Source: Oscillospiraceae bacterium (lineage in GTDB: Bacteria; Bacillota; Clostridia; Oscillospirales; Oscillospiraceae). From it: 40,450 nucleotides of DNA. The notes under the pieces were generated by a model. It was not told the DNA's origin. It was given only the letters and a program-made list of their open reading frames with translations, and ran no database searches. Of this stretch, positions 28,257-32,902 are shown piece by piece. Numbering within the stretch: position 1 is the stretch's first letter; the number at the start of each line of letters is the position of its first letter. The stretch lies in contig JAFWTG010000026.1 of the NCBI GenBank assembly GCA_017519005.1, positions 1-40,450 on the forward strand, read 5' to 3'. The translations under genes were made by a program, and so were the position numbers.

Positions 28257-29756
28257 TCAACTCCGCTTTGTGATGCGCTTGCGGCTGGAGCTGATGGCCC
28301 GCTGTGGGCAGACCAACACGCAGAGATGGCAGCCCACGCACTGCTTCGCGCTGAACAGGGGGCGGCGGTCCTCCGACAGGCGGATGGCCTGGTGGCCGCC
28401 GTCGGCGCAGGAAATCACACAGCGGCCGCAGCCGATACATTTCTCCCGGTGGAATTTGGGGATGATGACCGTGTCCCGCTCCAGCACGTCGGTGGTCTCG
28501 CTGACGGAGTCCAGGGCCAGGCCCTTGAGCTCCGCCACGCTTTGAAAGCCCTTCTCCGCCAGATACAGATTGAGTCCGGCCTTCAGATCGTCGATAATCC
28601 GGTAGCCGTACTGCATCACCGCGGTGGTGACCTGAATGCTGTCCGCCCCCAGCAGAAGGAACTCCAGCGCATCCTGCCAGCTTTCAACGCCGCCCATGGC
28701 GCTCAGATGCATCCCGGTGAGGGTCGGATTCTGGCCCAGCTCCGTGAGAAAGCGCAGAGCAATGGGCTTCACGGCGCTGCCGCTGTAGCCGCCCACGGCA
28801 GACATTCCGTGGACCGCCGGGGAGGAAACGTAGGTATGCGGGTTCACGCCGATGACGCTCTTGATGGTGTTGATGGCGGCAATTCCGTCGGCGCCTCCCT
28901 GCAGGGCGGCTTCGGCGGCGGGGCTCATTCTCGCCACGTTGGGCGTCAGCTTGGCCAAAATCGGAATGCTCGCTCCCCGCCGTGCCGCCGCGGTGAAGCG
29001 CTTCACCAGCTCCGGCACCTGGCCGATATCGGAGCCCAGACCGCCGTCCGCCATATTGGGACAGGAGAAGTTCAGCTCGATGGCGTCGGCGCCGTTTTCC
29101 TGGCAAAGCCGGGCCAGCTCCTCCCACTCCGCGTCGTTCTGTCCCATAATGGAGGCCAGAATAAACTTCGTGGGATAGTTCCGCTTCAGCCGCCGGAAAA
29201 TCTCCATATTCTCCGCCACGCTGTGGTCGGAGAGCTGCTCGACGTTCTTGAAGCCGATGATGCCCCCGTCGCTGCCGGTGATGGCGGAGAAGCGAGGCGA
29301 GGCCTCGTGGATCTCAAAGGAACAGACGGTTTTGAAGGCCGCGCCGGCCCAGCCGGCCTCAAAGGCCCTGGCGCACATATCATAGGTGCTGGCCACCACG
29401 GAGGAGGACAGGAGGAAGGGATTCTCCAGCGGAATGCCGCAGAATCTCGTCCGCAGCCGCTCCTCGTCCTCCGGCAGCGGCAGCTCCAGCAGCGGACGGA
29501 CTTCTTCCCGCAGCCGGGTCAGCAGCCGACGGATCGGGACCTGGCCGGGGCGGACGCAGGCCCGCTCGCAGGGAGCGGAGCAGGCGGCGCAGAGATCCGC
29601 CGCCGGGATGCGGGAGGCGGCGGCTTTTTCATCGTCAAACCAGACGCTTCGCAGCAGCGAGGCCGGGTCCAGGCCTTCGCAGGCATTGGAGCAGGGGGCG
29701 TTTTCGCAAAGGGCACAGCGGATCATATCCGCGCGGTACAGCTTTCGGTCAAACAT
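28257..29756 (-). CDS. PreA-like dihydropyrimidine/dihydroorotate dehydrogenase with N-terminal Fe-S domain
   Basis: The 499-residue flavoprotein likely reduces uracil/thymine or a related substrate with FMN in a TIM barrel. Residues 1-95 form an alpha-helical iron-sulfur domain with C14, C17, C22, C26 and C56, C59, C63, C67 (C-x2-C-x4-C-x3-C, twice). The FMN barrel spans about 100-420, with NPFLLSSS, LNFSCPN, and IQVTTAVMQYG. The C-terminal ferredoxin domain has CIGCGRCVISC and CVGCHLCVLVC. In animal DPD and in PreT-PreA, an FAD/NADPH unit lies between or beside these parts. Here it is absent from the chain, and no PreT gene is adjacent. Electrons may come from ferredoxin. AAAGGAG lies 8 bp before the ATG. 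The gene starts 49 bp after the reverse transcriptase gene. Substrate is uncertain. Confidence 0.85.
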   Translation of the reverse strand: MFDRKLYRADMIRCALCENAPCSNACEGLDPASLLRSVWFDDEKAAASRIPAADLCAACSAPCERACVRPGQVPIRRLLTRLREEVRPLLELPLPEDEERLRTRFCGIPLENPFLLSSSVVASTYDMCARAFEAGWAGAAFKTVCSFEIHEASPRFSAITGSDGGIIGFKNVEQLSDHSVAENMEIFRRLKRNYPTKFILASIMGQNDAEWEELARLCQENGADAIELNFSCPNMADGGLGSDIGQVPELVKRFTAAARRGASIPILAKLTPNVARMSPAAEAALQGGADGIAAINTIKSVIGVNPHTYVSSPAVHGMSAVGGYSGSAVKPIALRFLTELGQNPTLTGMHLSAMGGVESWQDALEFLLLGADSIQVTTAVMQYGYRIIDDLKAGLNLYLAEKGFQSVAELKGLALDSVSETTDVLERDTVIIPKFHREKCIGCGRCVISCADGGHQAIRLSEDRRPLFSAKQCVGCHLCVLVCPQRAISSSRKRITKRS

Positions 29757-29805
29757 AAGGCAATCTCCTTTGCAGCTTGTGGTTGTCTTCGGAATCAGGC
29801 GTTTG

Positions 29806-31011
29806 TCATTTCTCGCGGGACGCGGCGTCGTAGTAGGCGTGGACCAGACTGCGATAGCCGAGGGCCTTCAGGTCCTCATAGCGCACGTTGTAGCGGGCCT
29901 TGGTCCGCCTGCCGCTGATCAACGTACGGAGGCAGTCCTGCGCGTACAGGTCGATGACGCGCAGGCTGTCGGCGGTGTTGATGACGGAGAAGAACCAATG
30001 GCTCCAGCTGAGCTCATGGTCGGAGGGGCTCTCCAGCAGCTTCCGGTTGAAGACCCGGATGAAGGCCGCCGCGGCCTGCTGTCCGCTCCGGCCGGTTCGG
30101 TCCCGCCAGCGGGCCAGCGCCCGGGTCTTGCGGCGCATCTTGGCCTTGAGCTTGGCCAGCGTGGCGGGCGCGATATCCACCCGGCCTTCCTTGCAGCAGA
30201 AGCCCAGAAAGGTCCAGCCGCTCTCCGGCGTGAACCACTCCTCCTTTTTGGGGTTGACCGCCAGGCCCTTCTCCGTCAGAACGGCGCGGATTCGCTCCGC
30301 CTGAGTCCAGAGCTCCGCCTCTGTGGGCGCGAAGACGATGATATCGTCGGAATAGCGGGCGTAGACCGCGCCGCGGCCGCAGAACTCCGCATCCAGGTCC
30401 TTCAGATAGAGGTTGGCGTAGAAGGAGGACTGGGGTGTTCCCGCCATGATGCCCTTCTGCTCGATCAGCGGCTTCCCGCCGTCCAGCGCCGCGGGCTCTG
30501 TCAAGAGGCCGGCCAGAAAGGCGTACAGCGCCGGGTCCGGAGCCAGGGCTGCATGCAGCAGGGGCAGGAAGCGCTCCAAATCGACAGAGTTGAAGTAGTT
30601 GCTCACGTCCACCTTGTAGGCGTACATCCGGCTCAGCCCCGGCACGGAGCGCAGGGTGCGGATCGCGTCCTTGGCGGTGCGGCCCGGGCGGAAGGACCAG
30701 AGACCGGGGGCAAAGAGCTCGTCGCAGCTCCGCAGCAGCAGCCAGGTCAGCAGCTTGAAAACCGTATTCTCCGGCTCCGGGTAGATATAGACCACCCGCT
30801 TCTTTTCGGAGTGCTGCTTGGAGATCACCGCCCGCCGGGGCAGGGGCAGGGCCTCTCCCCTGCTGATTCTCTGGCAGACCGGCAGATAGGCACCCGCGTC
30901 GATATATGCCCGCAGCTGCTTCTCGTCCCGGGCGGAGCAGATCAGCGCGCGCTTGTATTCGTAAAACGCCTCCCAGATCTCCGGCCGGGACAGCAGATCG
31001 AGCAGGGACAT
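29806..31011 (-). CDS. Reverse transcriptase (RNA-directed DNA polymerase), not an intron maturase
   Basis: The 401-residue protein has reverse transcriptase motifs in order: SFRPGRTAKDAI (about 106-117), KVDVSNYFNS with catalytic Asp135, KGIMAGTPQSSFYANLYLKDLD around 186-207 (cited in parts), and YSDD at 220-223 carrying the two other Asp. NPKKEEWFTPESGWTFLGF follows, then a basic helical thumb. There is no HNH endonuclease domain and no group II intron around it. The motif-4 sequence differs from classical retron and DGR forms (no NAxxH seen). The class is therefore uncertain; an unassigned or group II-like lineage is possible. ATG at 31011 has AGGAGG 6 bp upstream. A longer open frame reads through the inverted repeat but lacks any start signal. 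A structured 141-bp inverted-repeat element abuts it 5'. Defence, housekeeping repair or selfish spread cannot be told apart here. Confidence 0.88.
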   Translation of the reverse strand: MSLLDLLSRPEIWEAFYEYKRALICSARDEKQLRAYIDAGAYLPVCQRISRGEALPLPRRAVISKQHSEKKRVVYIYPEPENTVFKLLTWLLLRSCDELFAPGLWSFRPGRTAKDAIRTLRSVPGLSRMYAYKVDVSNYFNSVDLERFLPLLHAALAPDPALYAFLAGLLTEPAALDGGKPLIEQKGIMAGTPQSSFYANLYLKDLDAEFCGRGAVYARYSDDIIVFAPTEAELWTQAERIRAVLTEKGLAVNPKKEEWFTPESGWTFLGFCCKEGRVDIAPATLAKLKAKMRRKTRALARWRDRTGRSGQQAAAAFIRVFNRKLLESPSDHELSWSHWFFSVINTADSLRVIDLYAQDCLRTLISGRRTKARYNVRYEDLKALGYRSLVHAYYDAASREK

Positions 31012-31031
31012 GGACTTCCTCCTGAAAAAAG

Positions 31032-31172
31032 AAAAAACAGAAAGAGAAAGCGTTAAAGCCCGAATAATTTCGGGAAGTACCAGACCGTACACGAATCGGC
31101 TGCCTGCGAAGCCGCTTCTTCGGATTCGTGCCGGGTCCGCCGCAGGCGCAGAGCGTTCTCTTTCTGTTTTTT
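31032..31172 (-). ncRNA. Candidate structured RNA 5' of the reverse transcriptase (retron-like layout)
   Basis: A 17-bp perfect inverted repeat, arm AAAAAACAGAAAGAGAA at 31032-31048 and its complement at 31156-31172, encloses 107 nt. On the minus strand, the strand of the reverse transcriptase, the inside can form CACGAATC/GATTCGTG with an inner CGAAG/CTTCG, and CCCGAA-ATTA-TTCGGG. GCCTGCG and CGCAGGC offer a competing pairing. The element ends 8 bp before the AGGAGG of the reverse transcriptase. Retron msr-msd RNAs have this layout, with a1/a2 arms flanking 5' of the polymerase gene. A leader attenuator is the main alternative, because a T-rich tract follows the 3' arm. That it is an RNA at all is inference. 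Confidence 0.5.
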
Positions 31173-31182
31173 TAGTTTTGTG

Positions 31183-31199
31183 GCGGACCGTCGGTCCGC
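31183..31199. other. GC-rich 8-bp hairpin after the 170-residue gene
   Basis: GCGGACCG, one T, CGGTCCGC: perfect arms only 7 bp downstream of the stop of the 170-residue gene and 10 bp from the arm of the long inverted repeat. No T run follows it on minus, so it is a poor terminator. It may be part of the same RNA structure. Confidence 0.5.
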
Positions 31200-31205
31200 G
31201 GTCGG

Positions 31206-31718
31206 TCAGCCCTCCAGCGCGGCGCGAATCCGCCTGACCACGTAGGAGCGGGCGTTCCACCAGCCCTCGTAGTCGTGATAGAAGCGCAGATAGGGGGTGC
31301 CGTTCCGCCGGCAGTCCCGGCGAAGCTGCTGCAGATCCGCCCTCCGGGACATGATCTCCACCACCAGGACGAGCTTGTCAAAGTCATAGAAGCTATAGAT
31401 CGTCGTTCTGTCGCTTCTGGGGTTTTCGCTGCGGATCACCCGGTATGCGGCGAAGTCCCGGTTGAAGATATCCTCGAAGTATTGCAGATAGCTGCCGGGG
31501 AAGTTGTACTGGTTGGGCTCGTTGGGCATCCGCTCGCCCCAGGAGCGGCCGATGGGGGTCTCCTCCCCCTGCGGGACGTTGACGGTATAGGCAGGTTCTG
31601 GCCTGGCTGCGGGACGCTGGGACGCAGGCGCAACGCTCTGCTCCTTGCCCTGGATCAGATCCACCAGATCCGTCAGAGACGGCTTCTTGCCGCCCAAAAG
31701 CTTGGATAACAGGCTCAT
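31206..31718 (-). CDS. 170-residue protein of unknown function upstream of reverse transcriptase
   Basis: The start (GGAGG 7 bp before the ATG) gives MSLLSKLLGGKKP, an amphipathic N-terminus, followed by a disordered Gln/Pro/Ala linker (about 25-55). A folded domain then spans about 60-170. Its strands IYSFYDFDKLVLVVEIMS and a later GTPYLRFYHDYEGWW are reminiscent of restriction-endonuclease-like folds, in which an Asp and a Glu lie on adjacent strands and a G-x-P-x-L-R strand follows. The Lys of the usual catalytic site is not visible, so activity is doubtful. No membrane helix or signal peptide. It stops 194 bp before the reverse transcriptase start, with two hairpins in that gap, and probably shares its transcript. 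A link in function is inference from position. Confidence 0.75.
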   Translation of the reverse strand: MSLLSKLLGGKKPSLTDLVDLIQGKEQSVAPASQRPAARPEPAYTVNVPQGEETPIGRSWGERMPNEPNQYNFPGSYLQYFEDIFNRDFAAYRVIRSENPRSDRTTIYSFYDFDKLVLVVEIMSRRADLQQLRRDCRRNGTPYLRFYHDYEGWWNARSYVVRRIRAALEG

Positions 31719-31787
31719 GGCATTCCCTCCAATTTGATGATTTGTATTGGTTGCCGGGACGGCGTTTCTTGCGCGCCTCGGCAGGAT

Positions 31788-32810
31788 TTACGAAAAGTTC
31801 GCGGACCACAGGTGCTCCGCCAGCGCCGCGTCGGCAAAGTCCACGATGATCCAGCCCCGCAGCTCTTCCGTGGGCAGCTCCAGCAGACGGGGGTTCAGCG
31901 CGTTTGCGTAATGGAAGGGATGGCCGTAGGCTGCCGTCCCCTTGGTGCTGAGGAAGTGGACGGACAAATCCTCCGGGACGATGGCCGGTTCCCGGAGGCC
32001 GGCCAGGAAGGCGCTCCACTTGTCCTCCGTGCCGTAGCAGAAGCGATCCTGGACCCAGAGGCGATAGCTGCCCTGGTCCACGGCCTCCGCGTGCCTGGAG
32101 ACTTCTTTCCCGTCGTCCTGCTGCGGCCAGCGCAGGGAGACGCCGGCCTCAGGGCCGAGCCCGGCTGCGTCCCGGTGGCGGCGCAGCAGCACCAGCTTGC
32201 CCCGGGCCTCGCCCAGGGTGGGGAGGGTATCCGTCAGCAGGACCAGATCGCCGCGCTGCTTCAATTCACCGGTCAGCAGGGTCTCAAACTCCTCCAGCGG
32301 CGCGGTGACGTGCTCATACTTGACGGCGAAGAGCACGGTTTCCGTCGGATGCGCTTTCAGAAAGGCGGCGCATTGATCCAGCACGTCGCCCAGCAGCAGC
32401 GTATCCGACCAGGGCATGGGACCCCTGCGGCAGCTGGTAAAGCCGTGCATCAGCCGAAGCTGCGCGTTTTCCCGGTCGCCGGATTCGGCAAAGCCCAGGC
32501 GGATATCCAGGTATCGGAAGCCCGCATTCAGCTGCTCTTCAATGGAAAGCGCCTGACATTTCGTGATAAAGGCCAGCTGGGAATATTGGGTGGCGGAGTC
32601 GTGGGTGCCTGGAAGGACGATCTCATTCAGCCGCAGACCGTCGTCCAGCTTTGCCATCCAGTCCGCCGAGCCTGCGGCCGTTTTGACGGAGACAGTCTCC
32701 GTCAGCGGGATCACGAACAGCGCGGCTGCAGCCAGCAGGATCACGGCCAGCAGAACGCAGAGGACGCGCAGCAGGATTCTGAGCGGACGGGGGCGTTTCT
32801 TCTGCGGCAT
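31788..32810 (-). CDS. Membrane-anchored PI-PLC X-domain protein
   Basis: The 340-residue protein has a basic N-terminus (MPQKKRPRPLRI) and a single membrane helix at about 10-34, so the catalytic domain faces outward. It matches bacterial phosphatidylinositol-specific phospholipase C of the X-domain type: LPGTHDSAT with His70, LSIEEQLNAGFRYLDIRL, and LMHGFTSC with His122, the two histidines expected for acid-base catalysis. A DxR pair is in LDIRL. The C-terminal part (DFADAALAEHLWSANF) fits the end of the barrel. Such enzymes cleave phosphatidylinositol or GPI-type anchors, but many gut relatives have unknown substrates. ATG at 32810 has AAGGAG 8 bp upstream. A divergent promoter pair separates it from guanine deaminase. 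Transcription may continue into the 170-residue gene, 69 bp on. Confidence 0.85.
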   Translation of the reverse strand: MPQKKRPRPLRILLRVLCVLLAVILLAAAALFVIPLTETVSVKTAAGSADWMAKLDDGLRLNEIVLPGTHDSATQYSQLAFITKCQALSIEEQLNAGFRYLDIRLGFAESGDRENAQLRLMHGFTSCRRGPMPWSDTLLLGDVLDQCAAFLKAHPTETVLFAVKYEHVTAPLEEFETLLTGELKQRGDLVLLTDTLPTLGEARGKLVLLRRHRDAAGLGPEAGVSLRWPQQDDGKEVSRHAEAVDQGSYRLWVQDRFCYGTEDKWSAFLAGLREPAIVPEDLSVHFLSTKGTAAYGHPFHYANALNPRLLELPTEELRGWIIVDFADAALAEHLWSANFS

Positions 32811-32842
32811 GGGATCAGCTCCTTCGCTTTCTGTCTGTATGT

Positions 32843-32871
32843 ATCCTACCATTTATGCGGGAGGCTGTCAA
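32843..32871 (-). promoter_or_regulatory. Sigma-A promoter of the PI-PLC-like gene
   Basis: On minus: TTGACA (32866-32871), 17-bp spacer, TAGGAT (32843-32848). It may drive the PI-PLC-like, 170-residue and reverse transcriptase genes together, since no other promoter was found between them. Confidence 0.7.
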
Positions 32872-32902
32872 GGCGGAGGTTGTATATTTTTCCGAAATTC
32901 GA

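Follow-up and report, generated by a model that had tools for sequence, protein, structure and literature searches.

What does a structured RNA do when it lies directly before the gene of a stand-alone reverse transcriptase (RT) that is neither a retron RT nor an intron RT? The question is raised by a stretch of chromosomal DNA from a gut member of the Clostridia (Oscillospiraceae bacterium, assembly GCA_017519005.1, contig JAFWTG010000026.1), 40,450 nucleotides long and called the window here. It holds a triplet made up of a partner protein gene, a structured RNA, and an RT gene of the UG26 group. We propose that these encode a chromosomal ribonucleoprotein in which the UG26 RT would use a trans-acting, pseudoknotted RNA of ~150 nt as scaffold and template, with a nuclease-fold protein as the usual third part, and we give this proposal about an even chance of being right.

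A reading of the window from sequence alone had drawn attention to a perfect 17-bp inverted repeat enclosing 107 nt and ending 8 bp before the ribosome binding site of the RT gene, and to a 170-residue protein encoded just upstream on the same strand. Both are present (Table 1): on the RT strand, 8 nt separate the 3' arm from AGGAGG, and the RT starts at 31011. The strand folds with a z score of -3.8, and none of 200 dinucleotide shuffles was as stable. By itself the repeat proves little, because perfect 17-mer inverted repeats within 300 nt have five seed positions in the window, one of which belongs to this repeat. Also, two G-C pairs that adjoin the repeat in the fold of the window are not conserved in the alignment of homologues.

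All three parts of the triplet are already catalogued but unexplained, and the suggestion that they form an undescribed RT-RNA class does not hold. The window RT covers positions 1 to 396 of 398 of the PADLOC profile RT_UG26 (PDLC03764), the second-best profile being UG27 (95 bits; E = 1.2e-27), and it contains GIMAGTPQSS and YSDD; by profile it is a UG26 member, and nothing in the window departs from that group. The RNA core matches Rfam RT-5 RNA (RF03026) at 94.9 bits against a gathering score of 45.7, a family presumably named for its link to RT genes. The partner matches the PADLOC profile RTasCOG2852 (E = 3e-53). No account of a UG26 or RT-5 mechanism was found in the literature that we searched, whose coverage leaves out the likely source papers of 2022 and 2017; one paper (PMC10504277) lists UG26 among the RTs of viruses. 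At a threshold of 1e-40, 9 of the order's 295 genomes carry UG26, among them the window's own. A scan of contigs from GTDB species yielded at least 538 stretches encoding an RT relative at E = 1e-3, not all of them necessarily UG26. The best 80 of these, many titled as rumen or other ruminant-gut samples, were joined with the window and nine loci from the order-level genome search into a set of 90 RT loci, which includes at least two doubles (L004/L074 and L007/L071; across sets, also L046/L130 and L087/L111). Their catalytic motif is YSDD in 83, YPDD in 5, and YLDD in 2, and the RT alignment leaves out 24 of the 90. Ruminococcus flavefaciens (L039 and L060) is among the carriers.

The RNA was examined in an alignment made by sequence alone. 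A seed pattern was found at 70 of the 90 loci (20 were missed), and 63 RNAs were kept at <92% identity, with 7 of the 70 set aside as too alike. In this alignment the proposed structure pairs in 94.7% of cells, compared with 84.7% after shuffling and 41 to 52% when the structure is slid by one to three columns. Thirty of its 42 pairs have changed on both sides: 15 of 17 in the outer helix formed by the inverted repeat (P1), 10 of 13 in P2, and all five in P3. The repeat is beyond chance, then, because its arms covary across homologues, and it appears to be the functional outer helix of the RT-5 RNA. A 7-bp pseudoknot, GCCUGCG/CGCAGGC, is paired in 63 of 63 sequences; since its changes are wobble only, it is supported rather than proved. 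RNAalifold recovers P1 to P3 unaided, along with a 3-bp pairing that competes for the 5' pseudoknot strand. Rfam's structure line for the match leaves both P1 and the pseudoknot unpaired, so that a P1 helix with compensatory changes and an always-kept pseudoknot would both be new to the family. The RNAs of two loci (L052:5773-5994 and L081:5786-5989) are ~55 to 75 nt longer than the others. Separately, a weak match to the RNA model (35.7 bits) at L104:1501-1568 (genome G274) has P1-like arms and no core, RT, or partner nearby, and it is probably a terminator-like hairpin.

The RNA is closely coupled to the RT. A covariance model places it on the RT strand at 86 of the 90 loci, including loci outside the seed, 6 to 573 nt upstream of the RT match (median, 21.5 nt) and within 100 nt in 78 of the 86. 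Three of the four loci without it (L037, L076, and L077) begin only 0 to 156 nt before the RT. In the L076 genome the RNA sits at a contig end, followed by the beginning of an RT, and in that of L077 it likewise sits at a contig end; a search of the L037 genome found no RNA. The fourth, L084, has 6 kb upstream of the RT without the RNA, and its metagenome-assembled genome carries the RNA on another contig (33,751 versus 48,515 bases), with a partner gene directly before it. Three of the four misses are thus accounted for, and the RNA is present at the locus or elsewhere in the genome for 89 of 90 RT loci. Judged by the RT of this locus, L084 would represent a second lineage in which the two are split, different in kind from the one described next. 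The sequence-only reading had named RTs that lack the repeat, and arms without compensatory changes, as observations that would count against the RNA; both were looked for, and the outcome favors the RNA.

A further comparison comes from a genus, denoted g221, in which the RT and RNA genes have often come apart. Of its 85 genomes, 52 have the RNA and 51 have the RT (E = 3.2e-86 or better): both occur in 51, the RNA alone in one (G803), the RT alone in none, and neither in 33. Two further genomes with a weak RT row only (E of about 3e-36) were not counted as UG26. Where both lie on one contig (47 genomes), the RNA always precedes the RT on the same strand, at a distance of ≤96 nt in 23 and of 1.2 to 9.5 kb in 24. 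In the 16 loci that were fetched, the gap holds mostly opposite-strand genes; that of G843, for instance, contains a GH43 enzyme, a LytTR protein, a DUF7010 protein, and two genes without a Pfam match. The split is a single event, since one change between split and adjacent is enough on the RT tree. Genes recur on both sides: 15 of 16 loci have a Cys-rich gene of ~270 aa without a Pfam match on the upstream side, and among the 10 that extend past the RT, 9 have an FtsX-domain permease downstream, a partner-type locus (G837) being the exception for both. The site is therefore fixed. The upstream gene is present in 10 of 10 system-less genomes, and the six fetched have other neighbors, with no clean empty site among them.

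Both genes appear to be maintained after the split. In 23 g221 RNAs without an adjacent RT (20 with a measured gap of 1.2 to 9.5 kb and three whose RT lies on a different contig or was not found), P1 retains its inner 12 pairs in 23 of 23 and has mostly lost the outer four; 14 pairs have changed on both sides, and none of 500 shuffles gave as many. Of 18 split RTs taken, 17 could be read (one is misframed); these have a median ratio of nonsynonymous to synonymous substitution rates of 0.107 (17 pairs) and carry YSDD in 16 cases and YLDD in one. A TATAAT ends 6 to 7 nt before P1 in 26 of 26 g221 loci (these 23 and three adjacent), against 1.2 expected, and a further 16 to 18 nt upstream is a site matching TTGACA at three to five of six positions. 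From this spacing we infer that the RNA begins at P1 in g221. Among 84 partner-type loci, a TATAAT-like site (five or six of six) precedes P1 in 12 versus ~6 expected by shuffling, and no promoter is claimed; no promoter was found in the window.

Could the hairpins instead be a cis element of the RT mRNA, such as a leader, attenuator, or terminator? The short distance to the RT at most loci and the U-rich 3' arm would suit such a role. Yet the RNA is kept with covariation where no RT adjoins it, a promoter lies just before P1 in the split loci, and in the L084 genome RNA and RT are on different contigs. The split loci lead us to reject a cis-regulatory leader as barely credible. As RNA and RT co-occur in g221 though often kilobases apart, with a TATAAT before P1, the RNA appears to act in trans, as a discrete component rather than an mRNA leader, a conclusion that rests on comparative genetics. 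What is new here is that RT and RNA seem to be inherited together even with their genes kilobases apart, which gives the RNA the look of a working part in its own right.

The separable RNA also bears on retrons, whose layout the locus had been said to copy. In that reading, the arms would be a1 and a2, the RNA would be msr-msd, and the product would be multicopy single-stranded DNA. The order of structured RNA and then RT, and the terminal complementary arms, do fit, but the likeness goes no further than layout. Retron RTs carry the motifs NAxxH and VTG; each occurs in 2 of the 90 RTs and neither in the window RT. The GIMAGTPQSSFYANLYL and YSDD noted earlier, together with the missing NAxxH, were confirmed in its open reading frame (ORF). 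On motifs, profile cutoffs, and the separable RNA, we reject a true retron, which is strongly disfavored, and the earlier view of a structured RNA tied to an RT that is no obvious retron RT is supported.

The third part, the partner, is common but not universal. The RTasCOG2852 profile matches 72 of 73 aligned partners at 0.001 (12 of 85 were left out of the alignment), whereas nothing in Pfam scores above cutoff in the window partner. Its fold is likely PD-(D/E)xK-like, judging by a modest match in a comparison with the folds listed by VIA-align, which agrees with the possible nuclease fold noted earlier. E121 is conserved in 71 of the 73 partners; in the same 73, no conserved acid occupies the strand before E121 and no conserved lysine follows two residues on, as D...(D/E)xK would have it. 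The partner thus seems to lack the usual nuclease catalytic residues and is probably a binding subunit. The partner gene occurs in 12 of 22 genomes tested, 20 of which, and all 12 positives, belong to g221; in six split genomes it lies 8.3 to 13.8 kb away from the RT, on the opposite strand. RT and RNA form the core pair.

Several variants of the partner and its position were observed. One form of 430 aa (L008:29-1318) has an extra N-terminal part with repeats, and another of 250 aa (L009:547-1296) has an extra N-terminal part that seems to hold a zinc ribbon; zinc-ribbon families match one of the aligned partners. In eight g221 loci (L180 to L182, L184, L187, L188, L193, and L194), the RNA is immediately preceded by the end of a very variable gene of 196 to 510 aa on the same strand, in the usual place of the partner. 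The one tested, from G843, lacks a Pfam match and has a high content of Ser, Thr, Pro, and Gly. In G823, the RNA and RT are preceded by a 202-aa gene (L215:5890-6495) that has a partner-like start and matches neither the partner profile nor Pfam. Two distant RT and RNA pairs (L212 and L213, from G608 and G478) have no partner match and lie among repeated genes; B12-binding and radical-SAM domains were found in the one that was tested. In the window, partner and RT both start with MSLL, as do many relatives of each.

If the RNA is a working part, what would it do? We think that it most likely serves as scaffold and template. The UG26 RT would work with a discrete, pseudoknotted RNA of ~150 nt that P1 closes, and it would copy a short segment bounded by P3 and the P1 3' arm, with P3 setting the 5' border. 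Our best guess is that this segment, GCUUU-AAC-GCUUU in the window, has an A-B-A' layout and templates short tandem-repeat DNA, the repeat letting new DNA slip back; the predicted window product is (GTTAAAGC)n, an 8-nt repeat. Such DNA may act in abortive defense or have another role in the host. Template and product are proposed by analogy with the defense-associated RTs (DRTs) DRT10, DRT9, and DRT2. The segment reads N-UUUAA-NN-nn-UU in 82 of 89 RNAs, and in 54 of the 82 the A or C that precedes UUU agrees with the bases preceding the second UU (shuffle P < 5e-5). On the RT tree the rule fits 54 of 81 (simulation P = 0.003; second measure, 0 of 3,000), and when 115 of 126 distinct RNAs were pooled and shuffled blockwise, without correction for kinship, the mean match was 3.70 versus 3.32 (P < 1/2,000). 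These tests have limits: the pattern was seen first and then tested on the same data, the independent pairs are too few, and a hold-out set of 43 RNAs (two duplicates, 33 usable) lacked power, with 27 of 33 fitting (P = 0.18) and a single C-type RNA.

The RNA might also be only an essential scaffold or cofactor, the RT carrying out snap-back, untemplated, or repair synthesis with no part of RT-5 copied. Such synthesis has been discussed for group II-like G2L4 RTs, and in a fold comparison the window RT is closest to group II and G2L4 RTs; moreover, a fixed chromosomal site with ordinary neighbors suits a repair-like role, and the evidence for a template is indirect. Against this, the PADLOC profiles nearest UG26, which include UG27, UG4, UG17 (DRT10), Drt9, Drt2, and Drt3a, number RNA-templated systems among them (DRT10, DRT9, DRT2, and Drt3a), and the unpaired UUUAA beside P3, with its matching flanks, looks as a template would. 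We consider a scaffold-only role possible but rather unlikely.

Somewhat less probable still is a mobile or phage-borne, DRT-like defense cassette with rapid turnover. UG26 is patchy in the order and filed under DRT by PADLOC. However, the window RT finds no match at 1e-20 in 50,697 phage and 72,556 plasmid records and one remote match among viral contigs, and the g221 site is fixed. Among 145 neighboring ORFs of 25 loci, which were picked by length and include some spurious ones, no PADLOC family occurs in more than five (maximum, mad3, 5 of 145); transporters and metabolic enzymes predominate in the 25 of 122 Pfam families listed, and none of these families occurs in more than five ORFs. The neighborhood lends no support to a defense island, although the system may still serve in defense. 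Upstream of the window partner, the gene at 31788-32852 (minus strand) has a weak PI-PLC-X match just under the Pfam cutoff.

Table 1. Coordinates in the window of the UG26 RT, its RNA, and the partner gene
Feature	Position	Strand	Evidence
UG26 RT, 401 aa, YSDD	29806..31011	-	PADLOC RT_UG26, 535 bits, E 1.9e-161; Pfam RVT_1, E 1.2e-18; AlphaFold2 predicted local distance difference test 93.6
Whole noncoding RNA element, RT-5 core + P1	31028..31177	-	Covariance model R1, 156.8 bits, E 1.2e-36; the window sequence is one of the 63 used to build R1
RT-5 RNA core (RF03026)	31045..31151	-	Rfam, 94.9 bits, E 4.1e-19, model positions 1-104 of 104
P1 5' arm, 17-bp outer helix	31156..31172	-	Both-side changes in 15/17 pairs
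P1 3' arm	31032..31048	-	Both-side changes in 15/17 pairs; 8 nt between its end and the RT gene's AGGAGG
Pseudoknot 5' strand GCCUGCG	31141..31147	-	Paired 63/63, wobble changes only
Pseudoknot 3' strand CGCAGGC, loop at P2 tip	31102..31108	-	Paired 63/63, wobble changes only
P2 stem and tip; outer 31134-31138/31082-31086, inner 31123-31130/31090-31097	31082..31138	-	Both-side changes in 10/13 pairs
P3 hairpin, directly upstream of proposed template	31059..31074	-	Both-side changes in 5/5 pairs
Proposed A-B-A' template GCUUU-AAC-GCUUU	31047..31059	-	Inferred
Partner protein, 170 aa, RTasCOG2852, likely PD-(D/E)xK-like fold	31206..31718	-	PADLOC profile; directly upstream, same strand as RT

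Among known systems, the DRTs with a templating noncoding RNA (DRT2, DRT3, DRT9, and DRT10) share with the proposed ribonucleoprotein a structured RNA belonging to the RT. DRT10, made up of an RT, a noncoding RNA, and a SLATT protein, likewise has three parts, but its RNA sequence and partner differ, and the UG17 profile scores the window RT at 78 bits. Compared with DRT9 and DRT2, the UG26 system differs in having no poly-U template and in usually having a partner protein. For group II intron and G2L4 RTs, TIGR04416 gives the window RT 93 bits against a cutoff of 300, and no intron family is among the three Rfam matches up to E = 5 in 29700-32900. In layout only, the split genomes resemble telomerase, in which TERT works with a separately encoded RNA: they too combine an RT with an RNA that is transcribed separately and holds a putative align-and-copy segment. 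A bolder and quite improbable extension is that UG26 is a vertically kept, telomerase-like bacterial enzyme, whose separately encoded trans RNA with its A-B-A' segment would yield tandem-repeat DNA for a host function rather than serve a turnover-prone defense cassette, with a catalytically dead nuclease-fold subunit as an adaptor.

What this analysis adds to the catalogued parts is P1, the trans-acting nature of the RNA, and the likely fold of the partner; the mechanism beyond these is what we infer. The split genomes amount to a natural experiment, which shows the RNA as a separate component with a 5' end probably at P1. They also leave a precise template prediction, with an 8-nt repeat as the product, for an RT that belongs neither to the retrons nor to the introns.
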